Positions 3,911-42,688 of a stretch of DNA of 46,343 bases are shown piece by piece. The position numbers and the translations under genes are program-made. Origin of the DNA: Pseudomonadota bacterium (lineage in GTDB: Bacteria > Pseudomonadota > Gammaproteobacteria > Burkholderiales > Gallionellaceae); contig JAJXTL010000004.1 in the NCBI GenBank assembly GCA_021783855.1, positions 1 to 46,343 on the forward strand. Direction: 5' to 3'. The notes under the pieces were generated by a model. The model worked only from the letters and a program-made list of their open reading frames with translations, was not told the origin of the DNA and searched no databases. Each line of letters starts with the position of its first letter. The first letter of the stretch is position 1.

Positions 3911-4014
3911 TCAGGATGCAGGATTGAGGATCAAGGATTGAGTTAAAAACAGAGCAGCGGTTTTTTTCGCTCCTCGATCCTCCACTCCTCGCTTCGCTCT
4001 CCTCACTCCGTCCT
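3911..4014. repeat. Inverted array of ATTGAGGAT-type words
   Basis: Directly upstream of arnD, degenerate GGATTGAGGAT words (about 3911-3942) face CTCCTCGATCCTCC-type words (about 3969-4010), with a loop containing a T7 run. The same architecture recurs at 5971-6076 and 27728-27873. It fills the arnA-arnD gap and occupies the ribosome-binding region of arnD. Confidence 0.6.
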
Positions 4015-5065: not shown

Positions 5066-6070
5066 TTAACAATTAAATTCAAATCGTGCCGTACCAAATT
5101 TTGCGGCGAATTGGGTCGCACTCATCTCGATGCCCTCCAATTCAAAACGCACTATCCGCAATACGCCTTGTCCGCAGATCGCATAGGCGCAGCCTTCATT
5201 CACATAAAAAGCGGGATTACCGGCAGCCGCAATACGGGTTTTCAGTGTCTGCAAAATGCGCATCGGCCGGCCCAGCAAACGGGTCGCCGCCCCCGGATAG
5301 GGGGGCGCAACAGCGCGCACCAGATTATGTATATCCTGCGCACTTTGCGACCAATCGACTACGCCGTCTTCAGCGCGGCGCCCGCCAAAATAGGCGCCCT
5401 GAGTCAAATCCTGTTTCATCCGTGGCGCACGTCCAGCCAAGAGCGCCGGCAACACAGCATTCAACGCCATCTCGGCCGCCACGGTCACCTTCTGAAACAC
5501 GTGCAGCGCGGTATCGTCGGGCAAAATAGGCACAGCCTGTTGCGCCACAATGTCGCCGTTGTCCGGTTTCTCCGTCATGTAATGCAGCGTGGCGCCCGTT
5601 TCAGTCTCGCCGCGGATTATCGCCCAATTCACCGGCACCCGACCACGGTATTTTGGCAACAGGGAGCCATGCATGTTCAAAGCGCCCAGTTTCGGGATAT
5701 CCAGCAGGGACGCTTTCAACATCTCGCGATAATAGAAGGAAAAGAAAAAATCAGGCTGCAGGGCGCGGATTTGCTCGACCACTGCCACATCATTCGGATT
5801 GTCCGGCGTGATAACAGCGATACCGTGCAGCGCGGCCAGCTCGGCGACGCGCTCGAACCAGATATTTTCATCGGGGTTGTCGCGGTGGGTCACCACCAGC
5901 TTCACCGCCACTCCATGCGCCAGCAGCACGGAAAGGCAGCGCACGCCCACGTTATGATAGGCAAAGACAACGGCTGAGGATTGAGGATTGAGGATTGACG
6001 ATTGCGCAAATCCCTTTAGCTTAGATGCTGGTTCCAACTCGTCCCTCACTCCTCGATCCTCGATCCACAA
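5066..6070 (-). CDS. arnA: UDP-Ara4N formyltransferase (ArnA N-terminal domain as a separate protein)
   Basis: This enzyme transfers a formyl group from N10-formyl-tetrahydrofolate to UDP-4-amino-4-deoxy-L-arabinose. It has the formyltransferase core with the Asn-His-Asp triad: N132 and H134 in LNMHGSLLPKYRGR, and D170 in KPDNGDIV. The family normally starts at VVFAYHN, but here that motif lies at residue 34. The first 33 residues are encoded by an ATTGAGGAT repeat array and overlap the end of arnC. No ATG occurs between residue 1 and the core. Real initiation may be this ATG, the GTG at codon 8, or the TTG at codon 12 just after the arnC stop. Confidence 0.88.
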   Translation of the reverse strand: MWIEDRGVRDELEPASKLKGFAQSSILNPQSSAVVFAYHNVGVRCLSVLLAHGVAVKLVVTHRDNPDENIWFERVAELAALHGIAVITPDNPNDVAVVEQIRALQPDFFFSFYYREMLKASLLDIPKLGALNMHGSLLPKYRGRVPVNWAIIRGETETGATLHYMTEKPDNGDIVAQQAVPILPDDTALHVFQKVTVAAEMALNAVLPALLAGRAPRMKQDLTQGAYFGGRRAEDGVVDWSQSAQDIHNLVRAVAPPYPGAATRLLGRPMRILQTLKTRIAAAGNPAFYVNEGCAYAICGQGVLRIVRFELEGIEMSATQFAAKFGTARFEFNC

Positions 6071-6076
6071 TCCTGT
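5971..6076. repeat. Inverted array of ATTGAGGAT-type words, inside coding sequence
   Basis: Tandem GGATTGAGGATTGAGGATTG (from about 5977) faces CTCCTCGATCCTCGATCC (about 6049-6066). It lies across the arnC/arnA junction, encoding the last ArnC residues and the N-terminal extension of the formyltransferase. It is the same family as 3911-4014 and 27728-27873. Confidence 0.6.
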
Positions 6077-9296: not shown

Positions 9297-9358
9297 ACTG
9301 ATGAAACAACTAGCCATTCGACTAGACGAGCAAACAACACTCGCCAAGTCGCTGGTTA
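9297..9358 (+). repeat. Dispersed ACTAGCC repeat, intergenic copy
   Basis: The segment contains ACTAGCCATTCGACTAGACG and then GCAAACAACACTCGCCAAGT. It matches the reverse complement of the recA 3' end (15460-15513) at nearly every position over about 50 bp. Its two ends, ACTAGCCATTCGACTA and CAAGTCGCTGGTTAT, also occur inside thiL (about 41902-41956). Confidence 0.75.
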
Positions 9359-9419
9359 TGGCGAAGCGAAGCTTCACCAGCCGTCTGCGGCAGCCGCCAG
9401 CAAGGCCGGACTCACCAAA

Positions 9420-12116
9420 CTATAACTTGCCCTGTACCCAGGCTGGGACAGATGCCAGCGCCGCCGCCAGATGCGCGGGTTGCGTGCCCCCTGCCTGCGC
9501 CATGTCCGGCCGGCCCCCGCCCTTGCCGCCTACCTGCATGGCTACCATATTAACCAGTTCGCCCGCCTTGACCTTGCCGGTCTGATCTGCGGTTACCCCG
9601 GCGATCAGCGATACCTTGTCATCCGTTACGGAAGCCAGCACGATCGCGGCAGACTTGAGTTTGTCTTTTAACTTATCCAGTGTCTCGCGCAGCACCGCCG
9701 CATCAGCGCCCGGCAACAAGGCTGCCAGCACTTTCACACCCTTGATGTCCTGCGCCTGATTCAACAGCTCATCGCCTTGTGCCGAAGCCAGTTTCCCCTT
9801 CAGTGCTGCAAGTTCGCGTTCGAGACGGCGCACCTGATCGAGCACCGCCAGCACGCGGGCGGGAACCTCCCTGGGCAACACTTTCAGTGTACCCGCCACG
9901 CCGCCCAGTGCTGTTTCCATCTCCTGCATATAGCTCAACGCATTATCGCCCGTCACCGCTTCAATCCGGCGCACGCCGGCAGCTACGCCGCCCTCTGCCG
10001 TGATGCTGAACAGGCCGATGTCACCGGTACGTTTAACATGTGTGCCGCCACACAATTCACACGACGAACCGATGTTCAGCACGCGAACTTCATCGCCGTA
10101 CTTCTCGCCGAACAGCATCATCGCACCGGTCTGCTGCGCATCCTCAATATTCATCACGCGCGACTGAGTTTCAACATTCGCCAGAATCTCGGCATTCACG
10201 ATCGCCTCCACCCGGCGGATCTCTTCATTCGTCAGTGGCTGGCTGTGCACGAAATCGAAACGCGTCTTGTCCGCGTCCACCTGCGAGCCCTTTTGCTGCA
10301 CGTGAATACCCAGCACTTCCCTTAATGCCTTGTGCATCAAATGAGTGGCGGAATGGTTGCGCACGATGCGGGCGCGCGCCAGCGTATCCACTTTTGAGGT
10401 CACGTTGTTGCCGACACTGACCCTGCCCGTCGTCACCGTCCCGTGATGACCGAAAACGGCCGCCTGTATCTTTTGCGTGTCTTCCACCACGAAAATACCA
10501 TGCGTGCTGCGCAATACGCCGCTGTCACCGACCTGACCGCCGGATTCGGCGTAAAAAGGCGTATCGTCCAGCACCACCACGCCCGTCTCGCCCTCGTTCA
10601 GCTCATTAACCGAAACGCCGTCCTTATACAGCGCAAGCACGCAACCCTTATGCTCCAAGGTCTCGTAGCCATGAAAAGACGTCACCGGCCCTTCATACTC
10701 AAGATTGGCGACCATCTTGAATTTGCCGGAGGCGCGCGCCTGCTGTTTTTGCTGCGCCATTGCCGCGTCGAATGCGGCCACATCCACGGTCACGCCTTGC
10801 TCGCGGCACACGTCCTGGGTCAGATCGAGCGGGAAACCGAACGTGTCGTGCAGCTTGAATGCTAAGTTTCCATCCAATATAGAGCGATTTCCCTCACCCT
10901 CAATCCCTCTCCCTGAGGGAGAGGGAGGCTGAACCCTCTCCCCTCGGGAGAGGGCAGGATGAGGGAGCGCCCGCAAAGCATCCAATTCGCTTTCGAGTAT
11001 CTCCATGCCATTTTCTATGGTGGCGAAGAAACGTTCCTCTTCCAGCTTGAGGATACCCTTGACGTGCACTTGTTCAGCAATCAGTTCGGGATAGGCTGTG
11101 CCCATCTGTTCGACCAGATCGGGCACCATCCTGTAGAAAAACGCGTCGCGCGCGCCCAGCTTGTAGCCGTGGCGGATCGCACGACGGATGATGCGGCGCA
11201 GCACATAGCCGCGCCCTTCGTTGCCGGGAATCACCCCGTCCGCGATCAGGAAGGAACAGGCGCGAATATGGTCTGCCAGCACTTTGAGCGAGGGCGATTC
11301 CAGATCGGTACAGTGCGTTTCGCGCGCCGCAGCAGCAATCAGCGCAACAAACAGGTCAATCTCGTAGTTGGCATGCACATGCTGCAACACCGCCGAGATG
11401 CGTTCCAGCCCCATGCCGGTATCCACCGACGGCTTGGGCAGCGGATGCATCACGCCCGCTTCGTCGCGGTTGAACTGCATGAACACGTTGTTCCAGATCT
11501 CGATGTAACGGTCGCCGTCTTCTTCCGGTGAACCTGGCAGACCGCCCGGAATATGCTCGCCGTGATCGTAGAAAATTTCGGTGCACGGACCGCACGGACC
11601 GGTGTCGCCCATCATCCAGAAATTGTCTGACGCATAGCGCGCACCCTTGTTGTCGCCGATGCGAATCACGCGGGAAGGTTCGAGTCCCATCTCTTTGGTC
11701 CAGATGTCGTAAGCCTCGTCATCCTCTGCATACACCGTGACGTAAAGCCTGTCCACAGGCAGTTTGAACACGCGGGTTAACAGCTCCCACGCATAGGAAA
11801 TCGCGTCGCGCTTGAAGTAATCGCCAAAGCTGAAGTTGCCCAGCATCTCGAAAAAGGTGTGGTGGCGCGCGGTGTAGCCGACGTTTTCCAGATCGTTATG
11901 CTTGCCGCCGGCGCGCACACACTTCTGACTCGTTGTCGCGCGGGTATAGGGGCGCTTGTCGAAACCCAGGAATACATCCTTGAACTGGTTCATCCCCGCA
12001 TTGGTAAACAGCAGGGTCGGGTCATCGACCGGCACCAGTGAACTGGATGCGACTATCGTGTGGCCTTTGGAGGCGAAAAAATCGAGGAACTGCTGGCGAA
12101 TTTCACTGCTTTTCAT
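9420..12116 (-). CDS. alaS: Alanyl-tRNA synthetase with an in-frame repeat insertion
   Basis: This class II synthetase charges tRNA-Ala and edits misacylated Ser/Gly. Domains are in order: the aminoacylation core (from [19 protein letters not shown] to the [13 protein letters not shown] region), the editing domain with zinc ligands in HSATHLMH and CELCGGTH, and the C-terminal oligomerisation domain with [12 protein letters not shown]. At 898 residues it is about 25 longer than usual. Residues 384-409 ([14 protein letters not shown]... to ...GIEGEGN) interrupt an otherwise conserved linker just before [15 protein letters not shown]. They are encoded by a double palindromic repeat at 10891-10965. 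The frame is kept, so the enzyme is presumably active. The start ATG is standard. Confidence 0.97.
10891..10965. repeat. Double CCCTCTCCC palindrome inside alaS (module B)
   Basis: Two adjacent hairpins occur: 10905-10925 (arms CCCTCTCCCT/AGGGAGAGGG) and 10934-10954 (arms CCCTCTCCC/GGGAGAGGG). They are flanked by CCCTCACCCT on the left and AGGATGAGGG on the right. The unit is 75 bp, exactly 25 codons, so the alaS frame is preserved. The same module is seen at 17209-17229, 21392-21413 and 23223-23243. Confidence 0.8.
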
Positions 12117-14600: not shown

Positions 14601-14673
14601 GCATGAATTTCCTGAAAATTTTTATTCCGTTGATAGCAAGTGGCAATTGTGCTCTTGCTGGCGTATCTAACGA

Positions 14674-14797
14674 GCATGGCGAAGATGCTACCCTTGATGA
14701 TGAACTTCGCCATGCCCGTGCACCCTAGCTGCGCGCTACGCTCTCCGTTCCCGGCAGGAGAGGAGGAAAACGAACGCTTGCGCGAGTTTCACGTTAA
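14674..14797 (+). repeat. Composite palindromic element, copy 1 (modules A-B-C)
   Basis: Module A is a perfect 11-bp inverted repeat, GCATGGCGAAG (14674-14684) and CTTCGCCATGC (14705-14715). Module B is degenerate, a CTCTCC...GGAGAG hairpin near 14740-14763. Module C is GAACGCTTGCGCGAGTTTCA followed by CGTTAA (to 14797). It fills much of the 360-bp gap between the Crp/Fnr gene and recX, where no gene is seen. Order and sequence match copies at 17154-17262, 21360-21473, 37763-37835 and 41860-42000. Confidence 0.75.
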
Positions 14798-21359: not shown

Positions 21360-21473
21360 TTAACAAATTTCGCGTAGCGATTCGATCGCCTCCTCTCCCG
21401 CAAGCGGGAGAGGATTGAAGTGAGGAAAACGGGCATGGACTTTCATCAAAACAACTTATTTCCCATGCCCGTT
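21360..21473 (-). repeat. Composite palindromic element, copy 3 (modules A-B-C, minus orientation)
   Basis: On the minus strand, module A is AACGGGCATGG (21438-21428 complement pairing) with CCATGCCCGTT (21463-21473), perfect 11-bp arms. Module B is CCTCTCCCGC/GCGGGAGAGG (21392-21413). Module C is CGATCGAATCGCTACGCGAA then ATTTGTTAA. It spans the dedD-cvpA junction, encodes the last DedD residues (GHGK) and stop, and ends at the cvpA start. Confidence 0.75.
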
Positions 21474-22127
21474 AACTTCCGCAATTACCGGGTGCAGACC
21501 GTGTTTTTCCAGCAACTGCCGCACCTCGTCCGCCTTGCTGCGATCAACATAGGGCCCTACCCGCACCCGGGTCGTACCGCTGATCAATTCCGTATAGGCC
21601 TTGAAGCCCCAGGCTTTCAACCTGGCAGCTTCCTGCTCCGCCGTCTTCCCACTGGAAAATGCGCCGATCTGAACGATATAATTCCCTGATGGTTTTTCTG
21701 ACGGTTTTTCCGAAGGTTTCACTTCTGCATGTCTGGCTTCTGCCGGCTTTGCTTCAGCCTGCCTGACTTCCGCGGGTTTAGCCTGCGCCAGTTTGACTTC
21801 AGGCTCCTTGACCGGTTCCTTGAGCGGCTGCACGGTTTCAGATACGGCAGGCTTGACAGCCGGCGCCACACCGGACACCGGATTGGCAACAACAGCGGAT
21901 CTGGCAGCGGCATCCACCACTTTGGAGAGCGCTTCGCCTGGCACGAACTCGCCCACCTTGTCGGGTGCCGGGATGCGCAAGTCGATATCCTGCCCGGTGA
22001 TTTTAGGCTCGCTGTCCAGCAACATCGGCAAAACCACCACCACGGCCAGCGCAAGGACAATCGCACCGACCAGACGGCGGCGCGCACGGCTCTTGATATT
22101 AATTTCCTCTTCCGCTTGCTTTGCCAT
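21456..22127 (-). CDS. dedD: SPOR-domain protein DedD
   Basis: This is a septal-ring SPOR protein. A cytoplasmic basic head (INIKSRARRRLVGAI) is followed by one membrane helix (about 18-36), then a long Pro/Lys/Glu/Ala-rich linker with repeated KPAEARxAE units (about 100-145). The C-terminal SPOR domain is NYIVQIGAFSSGKTAEQEAARLKAWGFKAY ... RVRVGPYVDRSKADEVRQLLEKHG (about 148-215). SPOR domains bind denuded peptidoglycan at division sites. The 223-residue length is usual. Neighbours folC and cvpA match the conserved order. The final residues come from a composite repeat. Confidence 0.92.
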   Translation of the reverse strand: MAKQAEEEINIKSRARRRLVGAIVLALAVVVVLPMLLDSEPKITGQDIDLRIPAPDKVGEFVPGEALSKVVDAAARSAVVANPVSGVAPAVKPAVSETVQPLKEPVKEPEVKLAQAKPAEVRQAEAKPAEARHAEVKPSEKPSEKPSGNYIVQIGAFSSGKTAEQEAARLKAWGFKAYTELISGTTRVRVGPYVDRSKADEVRQLLEKHGLHPVIAEVNGHGK

Positions 22128-22245: not shown

Positions 22246-23616
22246 TCATGTTGCACACACCCCTTTTGTACGCATCGCTTCCGCCACCGTATAGAACGAT
22301 CCGAAGGCGAGGATTCTATCATTTTCACCGGCCACGTTACAGGCATGCGCAATAGCATGCTCGATATCATGAAAAGCAATGACTTTTCCTTTCACTCGGC
22401 ACCGATGCAACACCTTGATCGACTCATCGCTGCTTGCGCCGCGCGGCGCGTCTATACCCGACACCAGCCAGCTATCTATGTACGGATTAAGCGCTTCTAC
22501 CACGCCCGCCATATCTTTGTCTTTCAACATCGCAAACACCGCATAAGTATGCGGGCAGGGCGGCAGGGCCGCCAGATTCTGCGCCAGCGCGCGTGCTGCA
22601 TGCGGGTTATGTGCCACATCCAGAATAAACTGCGACTTGCCCGGCACAAACTGAAAACGTCCGGCCAACTGCACCTCGGTTAATCCACGGCGCACCGCTT
22701 CCATGCTCACCGGCAAGCGATCACGGATTGCATCCAGCGCCGCCAGTGCCGCACTGGCGTTGCGCAACTGGAACGCGCCGCGCAAGGCAGGATGCGGCAG
22801 CGCAGTTCTTGCGCCTGTCTTGCTGCGATAGTCCCACTGCCCCTGGTGTGGCGTAAAGCCAAACTCGCGGCCGATACACTGTAGCCTTGCGCCGATTTTT
22901 GTCGCATGATCCACAAGCGACCGAGGCACATCATCGCCGCCGGAAAATATGGCCACGCGATCACTGCGAAAAATACCCGCCTTCTCGAATGCGATTTGTT
23001 CTATCGTTTCCCCCAGATAATCGGTGTGATCGATGTCCACGCTGGTGACGACACTGCAATCTCCATCGAACACATTCACTGCATCGAGCCTGCCACCCAA
23101 ACCCACTTCCAGTATCGCGACTTCCACCTTGTGCTCGATGAACAGTTGCATCGCAGCCAGCGTGCCGAATTCAAAATAGGTCAGCGGAATATCGGATGAC
23201 TCAGATGATTCTAACGATTGCCCCCTCTCCCACCGGGAGAGGGTTGGGGTGAGGGAGGCGGCGCTCTGTCGGGATGAATCTCGACCTACGGCACAGCGCG
23301 CCTTTTCTATTTTCTCGAATGACGCGCATAACTCACCATCGGAGGCTGCCTGCTTACTGATTCGCACCCGCTCGTTGTAATGCAACAGATGGGGCGAAGT
23401 ATAGCAACCGACCCGGTATCCTGCCGCGTACAGAATGGCTTCCAGCATCGCGCACACCGAACCCTTGCCGTTGGTGCCGCCAACCACGATGACAGGAAAA
23501 TCAGGTTCGAGATTCAGCCGTTGCCTGATTTTTTCGACGCGCTCCAAGCCTAACGCGATGGCCTTGGGGTGCAACGATTCGAGATAGATGAGCCAGTCGG
23601 CTAAAGTTTTAGGCAT
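22246..23616 (-). CDS. folC: Folylpolyglutamate synthase / dihydrofolate synthase with repeat insertion
   Basis: FolC adds glutamate to dihydropteroate and to folates. The chosen start gives MPKTLADWLIYLESLHPKAI, the usual N-terminus. The ATP loop is GGTNGKGS (46-53). Later motifs are TYFEFGTLAAMQLFI, LEVGLGGRLDAVN, VDIDHTDYLG and DVAHNPHAARAL. At 456 residues it is about 30 longer than relatives. Residues about 106-139 (GRDSSRQSAASLTP to LESSESS) interrupt the region just before DIPLTYFEFG and are encoded by palindromic repeats at 23201-23300. The frame is intact, so activity is likely retained. A longer upstream ATG (23661) would lie in a repeat and is less likely. Confidence 0.95.
   Translation of the reverse strand: MPKTLADWLIYLESLHPKAIALGLERVEKIRQRLNLEPDFPVIVVGGTNGKGSVCAMLEAILYAAGYRVGCYTSPHLLHYNERVRISKQAASDGELCASFEKIEKARCAVGRDSSRQSAASLTPTLSRWERGQSLESSESSDIPLTYFEFGTLAAMQLFIEHKVEVAILEVGLGGRLDAVNVFDGDCSVVTSVDIDHTDYLGETIEQIAFEKAGIFRSDRVAIFSGGDDVPRSLVDHATKIGARLQCIGREFGFTPHQGQWDYRSKTGARTALPHPALRGAFQLRNASAALAALDAIRDRLPVSMEAVRRGLTEVQLAGRFQFVPGKSQFILDVAHNPHAARALAQNLAALPPCPHTYAVFAMLKDKDMAGVVEALNPYIDSWLVSGIDAPRGASSDESIKVLHRCRVKGKVIAFHDIEHAIAHACNVAGENDRILAFGSFYTVAEAMRTKGVCAT
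23201..23300. repeat. Palindromic repeats inserted in frame in folC
   Basis: The insert holds a CCCTCTCCC (23223-23231)/GGGAGAGGG (23235-23243) hairpin followed by TTGGGGTGAGGG. A second hairpin follows, GTCGGGA (23268-23274)/TCTCGAC (23279-23285), within outer arms GCGCT (23261-23265)/AGCGC (23295-23299). Both are families seen outside genes elsewhere. Here they code for an extra protein segment in FolC. Confidence 0.75.
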
Positions 23617-23621
23617 ATTTA

Positions 23622-23667
23622 TGTAGGGTGCGCTGTGCGCACCATGGTGCGTGAAACGCACCCTACA
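23622..23667. repeat. GTAGGGTGCG palindrome overlapping the accD stop
   Basis: Perfect 11-bp arms TGTAGGGTGCG (23622-23632) and CGCACCCTACA (23657-23667) enclose a second perfect palindrome, CGCACCATGGTGCG (23638-23651). The right arm contains the accD stop codon (TAG, 23665-23663). Related elements are at 24571-24592 and, degenerate, at 33173-33288. Confidence 0.8.
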
Positions 23668-27727: not shown

Positions 27728-27873
27728 AGGATTGAGGGTTGAGGAGCGAGGAGTGAGAACTAACGCCCCCAGCTTCCTCATTTCGTACAGCTATGCCATC
27801 ACTATTCCGCTCAACCATGTTCAATCACCACCACGTTTTTAAATTGATCCTCAATCCTGCATCCTCAATCCTG
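27728..27873. repeat. Inverted array of ATTGAGGAT-type words between truA and trpF
   Basis: GGATTGAGGGTTGAGGAGCG and GAGGAGTGAG (from about 27729) face ATCCTCAATCCTGCATCCTC and AATCC (about 27847-27872). It supplies the truA stop (TGA) and last residues, and reads as an extension of trpF. It is the same family as 3911-4014 and 5971-6076. No gene is seen in the gap. Confidence 0.6.
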
Positions 27874-28629
27874 AATCTGGGGCAATCCCCACTGGGCATC
27901 ATATTGAATGCGGCGCAAGTATAAACCATCCGGTGCGAAGGTCGGCGCGGCAAAACGGCGTATACGACCTGCCAGCACTTGCTCCAGCCAGTGCGGCGGA
28001 TGCTTGCCCTTGCCGACATACACCAGGCAACCGACCAGGTTGCGCACCATATGATGCAGGAACGCATTCGCAGAAAAATCGAATACCAGCATTTCTCCTT
28101 CCATGTATATATCGATGCTGTTCATGCACTTGACCGGCGACTTAGCCTGGCACTCCGCAGCACGAAACGCGCTGAAATCGTGCTCGCCCAGCAGGCACTG
28201 CGCAGCTTCCTGCATCGCCACGATGTCGAGCGGCAAATGGAACCAGCCCACGCGGCCCGCATGAACCGCAGAACGCACCGAACGATTGATCAGCAGATAG
28301 CGGTAGCTGCGCGCCTGCGCCGAAAATCTCGCGTGAAATTCATCCGGCACGACGTGCGCCCAGCGCACCGCAATACTGTCCGGCAGCTCCGAATTTACCC
28401 CGCGCACCCAGGCACTGAGCGGGCGTTGCGCATTGCTGTCAAAATGAACCACCTGTTCCAGCGCATGCACACCGGCATCCGTACGCCCTGCGGCGACAAC
28501 CGCAACGGGCGCATCGGCAATCCGGCTCAGCGCCTGCTGCAAGCTGTGCTGCACAGTCGCACCCACAGGCTGGCTCTGCCATCCCAGGTAAGGCCTGCCG
28601 TCGTACTCCACTCCCAGCGCAATTCTCAT
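27865..28629 (-). CDS. truA: tRNA pseudouridine(38-40) synthase
   Basis: TruA isomerises uridines 38-40 in the tRNA anticodon arm. Starting at the ATG at 28629 gives MRIALGVEYDGRPYLGWQSQ, the standard N-terminus, about 254 residues. The catalytic Asp51 lies in AAGRTDAGVHA. Other motifs are DEFHARFSAQARSYRYLL, EHDFSAFRAAECQAKSPVK, and FLHHMVRNLVGCLVYVGKG. The ATG overlaps the stop of the upstream membrane-protein gene (ATGA). The C-terminal residues QIQD and stop lie in a repeat array. Confidence 0.95.
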   Translation of the reverse strand: MRIALGVEYDGRPYLGWQSQPVGATVQHSLQQALSRIADAPVAVVAAGRTDAGVHALEQVVHFDSNAQRPLSAWVRGVNSELPDSIAVRWAHVVPDEFHARFSAQARSYRYLLINRSVRSAVHAGRVGWFHLPLDIVAMQEAAQCLLGEHDFSAFRAAECQAKSPVKCMNSIDIYMEGEMLVFDFSANAFLHHMVRNLVGCLVYVGKGKHPPHWLEQVLAGRIRRFAAPTFAPDGLYLRRIQYDAQWGLPQIQD

Positions 28630-33172: not shown

Positions 33173-33288
33173 TGCAGGGTGCGCTTTCATTCAGGAACAG
33201 ACGATTTATCGCCTTTATATTCCGCGGGAATGCCCTTGCGGCATTGCGCACCATTGCATCGAACTGGTGCATGAATGTACCCTACCTT
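33173..33288. repeat. Degenerate GTAGGGTGCG-type element between asd and leuB
   Basis: TGCAGGGTGCGC (from 33173) and TGTACCCTACC (to 33288) form imperfect outer arms, with GCGCACCAT and TGGTGCATGAATG inside. It looks like a decayed or interrupted member of the family at 23622-23667. No gene is seen in this 145-bp gap. Confidence 0.5.
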
Positions 33289-37762: not shown

Positions 37763-37835
37763 TTAACGTGAAACTCGCGCAAGCATTCATTCCCTGCACA
37801 TTGCATCATTTTGGGATGGCAGCTTGCCATGCCCG
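37763..37835 (-). repeat. Composite palindromic element, copy 4 (modules A and C)
   Basis: On the minus strand, GGGCATGGCAAGCTGCCAT (about 37834-37816) is a module A-like hairpin. Then comes degenerate sequence in place of module B. Module C follows: GAATGCTTGCGCGAGTTTCA then CGTTAA (to 37763). It lies upstream of leuC. Confidence 0.65.
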
Positions 37836-37994
37836 TAGGAACGCGGGATTATGCCATATCAAACGCGACTTGGCGCCCCCCTGGCGTGCTACTGTGTAGC
37901 CGCGCGCCTGTTGCAAACCTTGCCCATCGAACAACAATTGCCTGCTCATGCCTTGCATCCATCGCAGACTGACAACAAAACGCACCTTACTCAT
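37806..37994 (-). CDS. Hypothetical 62-residue protein coupled to the MFS gene
   Basis: The ATG at 37994 overlaps the stop of the upstream transporter gene (ATGA). The product is basic, without membrane segments or a recognised domain (MSKVRFVVSLRWMQGMSRQ...). Its last residues (AWQAAIPK) and stop come from a composite repeat, which argues either for a truncated gene or for chance. I include it because of the coupled start, with low confidence. Confidence 0.3.
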   Translation of the reverse strand: MSKVRFVVSLRWMQGMSRQLLFDGQGLQQARGYTVARQGGAKSRLIWHNPAFLRAWQAAIPK

Positions 37995-41505: not shown

Positions 41506-41590
41506 TGAGTTGTAAGTGGTGAGTGGTAAGTAGAGCGGCTGCGCCTCAGTGAAAACCACTTACTACTTTCCACTGACTACTTGCCAATCA
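41506..41590. repeat. Inverted array of GTGAGTGGTAAGTAG-type words
   Basis: GAGTTGTAAGTGGTGAGTGG and TAAGTAG (about 41507-41533) face CCACTTACTACTTTCCACTG and ACTACTTG (about 41555-41583). It fills the nusB-thiL gap. The design resembles the ATTGAGGAT arrays, but the word is different. Confidence 0.6.
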
Positions 41591-41593
41591 AAC

Positions 41594-42688
41594 ATGTCTG
41601 AATTCGATCTGATCCGTCGCTATTTCACGCGCCCCACGCCAAGCGCGCTACTGGGCGTGGGTGACGATGCGGCCTTGCTGCAATTAGGTTGCGACAAGCT
41701 GCTGGCAGTGTCTTCCGACATGCTGGTATGCGGCACGCATTTTTTTAGTGACGCCGACCCTTTTTTGCTGGGGCACAAGACGCTGGCGGTCAATCTGTCC
41801 GATTTGGCCGCCATGGGCGCTGTGCCGCGCTGGGCTACGCTGGCGTTGTCTTTGCCATACGGTCATGCAATTGCTCATGACCGCCCCCTCCACCCTAACC
41901 CTGATGGAACCACTAGCCATTCGACTAAGCCCGCAAGCGAGCAAGTCGCTGGTTATCCCCCGGAGGTAGAGGGGACGAACGAATCGCGATGCGACGTTAA
42001 TATCATTCTGGATGACGCCTGGCTGGAACAGTTCAGCGCAGGATTTTTTGCCTTGGCAGAGATGCATGGCGTGGAACTGGTCGGCGGCGATACCACGCGC
42101 GGGCCGCTCAATCTTTGCGTGACGATATTCGGCGAGGTGGATGCTGAACTTGCGTTGCGGCGCAGCGGTGCACAGGCAGGCGACGAAATATGGGTATCCG
42201 GCAAGCTGGGCGATGCGGCCCTGGCACTTGCCCATCTGCAAGGCCGCGTCGTCTTGACAAAAGACGAGTTCGCCGCCTGCGCGCCTGCATTACATCAGCC
42301 GCAACCGCGCGTAGCGCTGGGTCTTGCGTTGCGCGGCATCGCCGGCAGCGCGATCGATATATCGGATGGCTTGCTGGCTGATCTCATGCATATACTCGAT
42401 GCCTCGCAAGTCGGTGCAGAGCTGGCGTTGCCGTCTGTCCCCGCATCGGCCATCTTGCAGAAACTGCCAGACCGGATGCTAGCTCAGCGCTGTCTGCTGT
42501 CGGGCGGCGATGATTATGAATTGTGTTTTACTGCGCCTGCCTCACGCCACAACGACGTGCTGAATATCGGCGAGCAGCTGGGCTTGCCGTTGACATGCGT
42601 AGGTAAAATTGTTGCGGGGCGTGCAATTCGCGATGCGGCTGGCAATCCGATTAATACTGAAAACAGCGGTTATGACCATTTCCGATAA
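41594..42688 (+). CDS. thiL: Thiamine-monophosphate kinase with a 47-residue repeat-encoded insertion
   Basis: ThiL phosphorylates thiamine monophosphate to the diphosphate. Starting at 41594 gives MSEFDLIRRYFTRPTP. The conserved GVGDDAALLQ (metal-binding Asp), SSDMLVCGTHF and GHKTLAVNLSDLAAMGA segments follow. GGDTTRGPLNL, SAIDISDGLLADLMHIL and LLSGGDDYELCF come later. At 364 residues it exceeds the usual size by almost exactly the 47 codons encoded by a composite repeat at 41860-42000 (residues about 90-136, HAIAHDRPLHPNP to NESRCDVN). The insertion lies just before the DDAWLEQFSAGFFAL helix. The frame is intact. The gene overlaps pgpA by 17 bp. Confidence 0.93.
   Translation: MSEFDLIRRYFTRPTPSALLGVGDDAALLQLGCDKLLAVSSDMLVCGTHFFSDADPFLLGHKTLAVNLSDLAAMGAVPRWATLALSLPYGHAIAHDRPLHPNPDGTTSHSTKPASEQVAGYPPEVEGTNESRCDVNIILDDAWLEQFSAGFFALAEMHGVELVGGDTTRGPLNLCVTIFGEVDAELALRRSGAQAGDEIWVSGKLGDAALALAHLQGRVVLTKDEFAACAPALHQPQPRVALGLALRGIAGSAIDISDGLLADLMHILDASQVGAELALPSVPASAILQKLPDRMLAQRCLLSGGDDYELCFTAPASRHNDVLNIGEQLGLPLTCVGKIVAGRAIRDAAGNPINTENSGYDHFR
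41860..42000 (+). repeat. Composite palindromic element, copy 5, in frame inside thiL
   Basis: Module A is CGGTCATG (41860-41867)/CATGACCG (41876-41883). Module B is split: CCCTCCACCCTAACCCT on the left and CCCCCGGAGGTAGAGGGG on the right. Between them sits an ACTAGCC-type repeat (about 41900-41956) matching 9297-9358 and the recA end. Module C is ACGAACGAATCGCGATGCGA followed by CGTTAA (to 42000). The unit is 141 bp, a multiple of three. Confidence 0.75.

Follow-up and report, generated by a model that had tools for sequence, protein, structure and literature searches.

The window, that is, the whole 46,343-nt stretch of DNA that was analysed, contains five copies of a palindromic element of ~120 nt that is, in our judgement, very probably a non-autonomous, MITE-like transposable element, moved in trans, whose copies are tolerated in genes and are nested by other palindromes. 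The element is mobile, as seen from the empty sites in relatives.

Copies of the element in the window

The initial annotation had placed five copies of an A-B-C palindromic element in the window, and direct reading of the sequence bore out these places to within a few bases, with the strand corrected for copies 3 and 4, which lie on the minus strand. The A-B-C order that it described holds in general, the exceptions being copy 4, which lacks B, and copy 5, in which B is interrupted by a fourth palindrome, module D. The copies and the related hairpins are as follows.

14667..14797, plus strand: copy 1, with hairpin A, an A-B linker containing an additional CCCTAGCTGCGCGCTACGCTCTCC piece, B, and a C tail with the end CACGTTAA
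17151..17262, plus strand: copy 2, A-B-C, with a cinA-like start on one side and the end of a PLP-enzyme (cystathionine synthase/lyase-like) gene on the other, both genes named by eye
21360..21474, minus strand: copy 3, A-B-C, at the junction of a dedD-like stop and a cvpA-like start, both genes named by eye
37763..37838, minus strand: copy 4, A and C without B, upstream of a leuC-like gene
41858..42000, plus strand: copy 5, A, B with nested D, and C, inside thiL (41549-42688)
41903..41956, plus strand: module D in the B arm of copy 5
9300..9359, plus strand: solitary module D, located 3' of a CT dinucleotide
10880..10965 (limits approximate), plus strand: two B-type hairpins (10889-10960) in alaS (9420-12116, minus strand), without A or C
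23196..23294, minus strand: B (~23220-23256) with a GTAG-type hairpin in folC (22246-23661, minus strand, named by eye), without A or C

All five copies, together with two B-only places, were also recovered with a profile derived from 17 copies; as three of these 17 come from the window, the profile is not independent evidence for those three. Other repeats were also seen in the window, namely a GGATTGA/TCAATCC-like heptamer repeat at 1098-1128, 3913-3940, 5977-6004, 6041-6071, 27728-27755, and 27846-27876, and another short repeat family at 33186-33248 with copies in the genomes G001 and G002.

Architecture and stem covariation

The element follows the layout CTAACGGGCATGGC..GCCATGCCCGTT-[B]-CAAACGAATCGCTRCGCGAGTTTCACGTTAA, with a consensus of ~121 nt and a typical length of 113-125 nt where no nested palindromes are present, and is made up of three hairpin modules: A; B, a TM-type repeat; and C, a tiny TCGC-TNC-GCGA hairpin. 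Its ends are sharp, reading [YTAA]CGGGCATGG ... TTTCACRTTAA, and form a short terminal inverted repeat, TAACG/CGTTA, that is perfect over 5 bp and extends to 7 bp with one mismatch in the consensus (TAACGGG vs TAACGTG). Left ends (n = 86) begin with C (67%), T (75%), A (95%), and A (96%), followed by CGGG, and right ends (n = 81) finish with T (96%), T (93%), A (92%), and A (90%), beyond which there is only a slight preference (second base G in 48%); most copies therefore have TA at both termini. The consensus has neither GTAG nor CGTC as a terminal tag. On the reverse strand, the C hairpin of many copies often reads GCGNAGC, the motif of unusually stable DNA mini-hairpins, and this may be the strand that is recognised.

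Stems A and B covary. A check for compensatory changes, as the initial annotation had called for, was made over 28 pairs of the A, B, and C stems in 68 copies, against 500 shuffles and slid controls. Paired cells made up 85.9% (84.2 +/- 0.2 in shuffles), changes on both sides were found in 15 of the 28 pairs (7.1 +/- 1.5) and in 52 cells (19.8 +/- 3.3), and the covariation score was 0.102 (0.070 +/- 0.003), with 0/500 shuffles as high for any of these measures, to be read with the caution that relatedness by itself can beat such shuffles and inflate such counts. Further pair types numbered 33 against 28.2 +/- 1.7, a value reached by one of the 500 shuffles, and the slid controls gave at most 12 pairs and at most 26 cells. 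Since a free fold with RNAalifold on a sequence-based alignment recovered just five B pairs, the claim of covariation rests on the named structure and its controls. The proposal that A keeps its pairing rather than its sequence stood for the inner A pairs, where many copies are unpaired (the three innermost pairs in 22-35 of the 68 sequences), and did not stand for the outer 12 A pairs, which are also conserved in sequence. Three C pairs failed in 18-19 of the 68, and in one copy type the C stem is shifted by one base. The cases in which pairing clearly outlasts sequence are mainly inner A, modules B and D, and two distant copies (L213 and L214, in G405 and G294), in which the A place holds a different stem that is still self-complementary.

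Distribution among relatives

Further copies were sought in the genomes of relatives, and many were found, in A-B-C order. The modules are thus not solely independent units, with B and D also standing alone. An exact scan with the tail pattern reached five contigs of three assemblies, all of them MAGs. In these, G001, G002, and G003, a search with 111 nt of copy 2 (no more than 40 candidates scored in each) gave 40, 22, and 7 matches, respectively, at E <= 0.001, the best at E = 5e-28, so that the repeat is no product of chance. Along most of its longer alignments with the window, G001 shows ~90-96% identity, with one 1.4-kb part at 81%, and a Gallionella-like betaproteobacterium is therefore the probable host. 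In the family of G002, which is also the host family, 135 of 158 genomes match the 121-nt consensus (mostly with the best five candidates scored per genome). With the best two candidates scored per genome, matches were found in 103 of 349 genomes in a sample of the order and in 84 of 369 in a sample of the class. At least 18 matching genomes of the order sample that lie outside the 158 of the family have a near-full-length match (starting no later than base 3 and ending no earlier than base 113). The class matches listed lie around module B, at about bases 45-106, with the exception of those in G002, G405 (41-121), and G294 (40-121 and 52-121). These patterns indicate that B is widespread, while the complete unit is most frequent in this family and occurs in part of its order. 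The genome G084 is particularly rich in the element, containing a 15-nt tail pattern (at most one mismatch) 207 times, as compared to once for the reversed control pattern.

Empty sites, recent copies, and the insertion target

The suggestion in the initial annotation of a transposable hairpin was supported by the empty sites in relatives and by the near-identical copies with different flanks in G084. At the place of copy 2, the element is absent from G002 and G078. The copy 3 site is empty in G001, G002, and G061, where it reads GTTAG or GTTAA and then ATG, and the copy 5 site in thiL is empty in G001, at a spot without TA. No empty site was found for copy 1, at the place of which G001 has another C-like remnant, and no clean one was found in relatives for the solitary D at 9300. 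Seventeen sites in G001 were treated as joined flanks and 13 of these were searched in six relatives, from which 20 matching regions were fetched, corresponding to eight aligned sites. Four of the eight have TA at the spot in at least one relative (GTTAC-TAA/TAG, GTA-TAA, GGC-TAC, and AGC-TAG), the last being the L027 site, which has TAG in one and CAG in the other of two relatives. A fifth, in the linker of an AroA-Cmk fusion, is well aligned in five relatives and reads GCAG or CAAG, without TA, and the remaining three are too diverged for reading. Empty sites holding TA in at least one relative therefore total five (copy 3, L029, L035, L031, and L027), and well-aligned empty sites without TA in the relatives seen total two (the AroA-Cmk linker and thiL). 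The filled/empty polymorphism occurs between sequences that are ~90-95% identical.

In G084, 11 copies of equal length are 95-100% identical (mean 98.8%) and have different flanks, and such near-identical copies are a recent burst. All 16 of the G084 copies passing the script filter read CTAA at the left end and TTAA at the right; three further copies, outside the filter, have TTAA on the left, and two of these stand directly behind the tail of another copy. Among copies with CAA on the left (n = 10), nine have TAA on the right and none has CAA. Taken together, the CTAA/TTAA pairing and the copies with CAA on the left exclude a 4-bp target duplication and are compatible with duplication of TA or TAA, or with a YTAA-like target used without duplication. 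A long, autonomous copy was looked for in G084 at 22 tail matches within 17 fetched stretches, and no gene-sized gap was found in the 170 nt upstream of them. Left ends that could be reached lay 120-122 nt before the end of the tail, or 155 and 181 nt where D was nested; one stretch (L244) is without a left end, and contig ends truncate several copies. Several of the G084 contigs (L233-L249) end at or near a copy of the element, which for this reason probably breaks assemblies.

Copies and hairpins inside genes

Copies of the element probably survive in genes because three of the six frames of its consensus are without stops, chiefly NGHGK..PHPNPLPEGEGTNERLREFHV, and a copy of 3n length in a gene would add just a loop of ~40 residues. 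Copy 5 is a net 147-nt in-frame insertion in thiL compared to G001 and splits the AIRS match (Pfam). The two hairpins in alaS amount to a net 75-nt in-frame gain compared to G001, are absent from both G001 and G002, and include a B insert that splits the tRNA-synt_2c match (Pfam). The folC insert, a net 99 nt in frame that is absent in G001, pairs B with a hairpin that starts with GTAGGTCGAGATTCATCCCGACA and resembles a GTAG-tagged REP.

An open frame runs through the element in 17 of the 78 copies with at least 400 nt on each side, giving 19 frames in all at a cut-off of at least 60 codons upstream and at least 40 downstream, some of them antisense or otherwise unconvincing. Eight of these copies fall in proteins with a Pfam match. 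In four of them, namely a PabC-like protein (Aminotran_4), TilS (ATP_bind_3), a pirin (Pirin_C), and an SDR enzyme, the insert splits a matched domain or sits within it. In an FGGY kinase it falls between the N and C domains, and in the other three (a cytidylate kinase, a DUF218 protein, and a member of the nitronate-monooxygenase family) it comes ahead of the matched region. Overall, a Pfam domain was split by, or spanned, the insert in six of the ten proteins scanned. For the AroA-Cmk fusion the Pfam scan covered the Cmk part alone, with AroA read by eye; here the element (L073:17623-17742) lies in the linker, and as element-free relatives read continuously from aroA towards cmk, the fusion itself is apparently native. 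The reading phase was determined for the 45 of 81 copies that have an upstream open frame of at least 90 codons (open frames rather than verified genes), of which 25 read through, 14 use the TAA of the element as a stop, and six are in the third phase, a bias that is suggestive only.

Modules B and D and their nesting

To judge by its layout, module B is a TM-type triplex-like repeat, its arrangement CCCTCTCCC..GGGAGAGGG..GGGTGAGGG being that of TM_ECO when the B consensus is compared by eye with the TM_ECO table. B also lives apart from the element, for example elsewhere in the class. Module D, GRTGRAAC.ACTAGCCA..AAGTCGCTGGTTAT, is an independent palindrome with 26 distinct copies, 18 of which lie inside B by the script rule, mostly at CCCT^C or CCCTCT^CCC, and its inner hairpin varies from copy to copy while mostly remaining self-complementary, as read by eye. 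Secondary insertions of this kind, with D in the B arm and further hairpins in the A loop, would keep the outer stem and so produce nested forms, such as the A-B-C element in G001 (L070:15214-15664) that is swollen to ~450 nt by several nested palindromes. A speculative extension, which we think improbable, is that palindromes serve as landing pads, so that families (A-B-C, D, GTAG-type, and others) insert into the loops and arms of each other through single-strand hairpin targeting and build Russian-doll elements of up to ~450 nt, the TM repeat being one such mobile palindrome that is still moving in Gallionella-type genomes.

Search for a transposase

Transposases of two types were considered as the possible source of movement, Y1 genes being present in 122 of the 158 family genomes and DDE_3 genes in 54. 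The two ends of the element were not found together at any of the 50 Y1 or 30 DDE_3 loci examined, and ends in common with an autonomous IS, a feature not strictly required of bacterial MITEs, are therefore not seen among these loci.

Of the more specific mechanisms, mobilisation of a TA-duplicating MITE by a DDE transposase of the IS630/mariner type, the mechanism put forward for RUP, is possible while clearly short of probable. It agrees with the TA seen in one or more relatives at five of the empty sites, with the TA at both termini of most copies, and with the YTAR-like flanks. It is at odds with the absence of TA at the AroA-Cmk linker and thiL sites in the relatives seen and with the limited occurrence of DDE_3 genes, for which G001 and G002 gave no match, and the 30 DDE_3 loci (DDE_3 being the sole IS-type domain covered) had no end pair of the TAACGKG / CACGTTA type and just weak partial matches to the element profile.

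Movement by a Y1 (HUH) tyrosine transposase of REP/RAYT type, which would move palindromes to a position 3' of a YTAA-like target with no target duplication, seems unlikely on present evidence. The lack of a clean target duplication (left YTAA or CAA compared to a near-constant right TTAA), the hairpins lying towards both ends of the element, and the frequency of Y1 genes in the family all speak for it. The RAYT/Y1 partner that the initial annotation had proposed to look for was nonetheless not found. In 20 Y1 loci with flanks there was no complete module, and no tail, 5' A, B, or D, save for one 3' A half (L134) and one 3' D half (L142). Six of the 20 (L133, L135, L142, L146, L147, and L152) instead have GGGGTCAGACTCGA repeats near the Y1 gene, which are probably the REP-like ends of those Y1 genes themselves. 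Another 30 Y1 loci had no tail and no A, and yielded a B copy ~0.3 kb from the gene (L130), a weaker match to the B part of the profile (L105), and a nested D ~1.2 kb from the gene (L127); the L127 and L130 loci could be counted in favour of a Y1 partner, and as B and D are common repeats, such single modules near Y1 genes are weak evidence either way. Moreover, no Y1 match was obtained for three element-bearing genomes (G010, G071, and G093, with 49, 43, and 67 first-look candidates), which may be incomplete, and the unit is 120 nt long rather than a GTAG-headed hairpin of 20-40 nt.

That the element is no longer mobile, and is instead a regulatory RNA or terminator, conserved and multiplied by ancestral duplication, whose mosaics arose by recombination between B repeats, is very unlikely: the stems covary, several copies stand at gene ends, and B is common elsewhere in the class, but this reading is already disfavoured by the empty sites and is opposed by filled/empty polymorphism at ~90-95% identity, by in-frame insertions in unrelated genes, by the near-identical G084 copies, and by the search of the window against Rfam at gathering thresholds, which matched a tRNA and left the element unmatched. 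An integron attC site, brought to mind by the AAC/GTT ends, was set aside by eye, as there are two local hairpins rather than one long stem.

For the non-autonomous, MITE-like element of ~118-124 bp that we favour, a transposase acting in trans would recognise the paired ends and insert the element at a YTAA-like, usually TA-containing target, with TA either duplicated or the target used without duplication. Most copies are probably selfish, and some may serve as putative intercistronic or 3' RNA hairpins. The mechanism of transposition is made directly testable by the filled/empty pairs and by the near-identical G084 copies.

Comparison with known systems

The best reading of the element is as a new bacterial MITE family, comparable to ERIC and the Rickettsia palindromic elements (PMC2229807, PMC10969869, PMC3733652) and unusually modular and nested. 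As is general for bacterial MITEs, it is shorter than 200 bp, has no protein of its own, occurs in many dispersed copies, and has terminal inverted repeats and TA termini. No paper was recognised as describing it in the mostly open-access literature that was surveyed. The modular repeats of the pneumococcus, the BOX elements, are also built as A-B-C and resemble the present element in layout alone.

ERIC/IRU, Correia/NEMIS, and RUP are similar in being ~100-200 bp, non-coding, and palindromic, with a short TIR, TA termini, many copies, and gene-fused open frames, and RUP is the only bacterial MITE for which a partner IS is named, according to the excerpts of PMC2229807 used here. Compared by description, the present element differs from these in its host group, its modular A-B-C build, its triplex-type core, and its nested palindromes. 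Rickettsia palindromic elements, in the same excerpts, are palindromes of 105-146 bp that occur in frame in conserved protein genes as well as between genes (PMC2229807). In-frame insertion in conserved genes is likewise found here, in thiL and elsewhere in PabC-, TilS-, pirin-type, and other genes, and, again by description, the present element differs in having non-Rickettsia hosts, defined TAAC/GTTAA ends, and separable modules. These insertions add cases of in-frame palindromic DNA in conserved genes outside Rickettsia and enterics, in environmental bacteria.

GTAG/CGTC REPs are also short palindromes that are sometimes found in genes, as described in excerpts of PMC3733652, and module D is likewise hairpin-shaped with a constant GRTG-like head; the element differs from REPs and RAYTs in its length and ends, and no RAYT gene flanked by it was found. 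The TM intrastrand-triplex repeat, known from more than 260 genomes, is always intergenic in E. coli MG1655, where no association with mobility was found, according to the portions of Holder et al. (2015, PMC4666352) used here. In contrast, module B is the core of a mobile element and lies also within alaS, folC, and thiL, which gives the TM triplex repeat a setting where it is carried along by a moving element.
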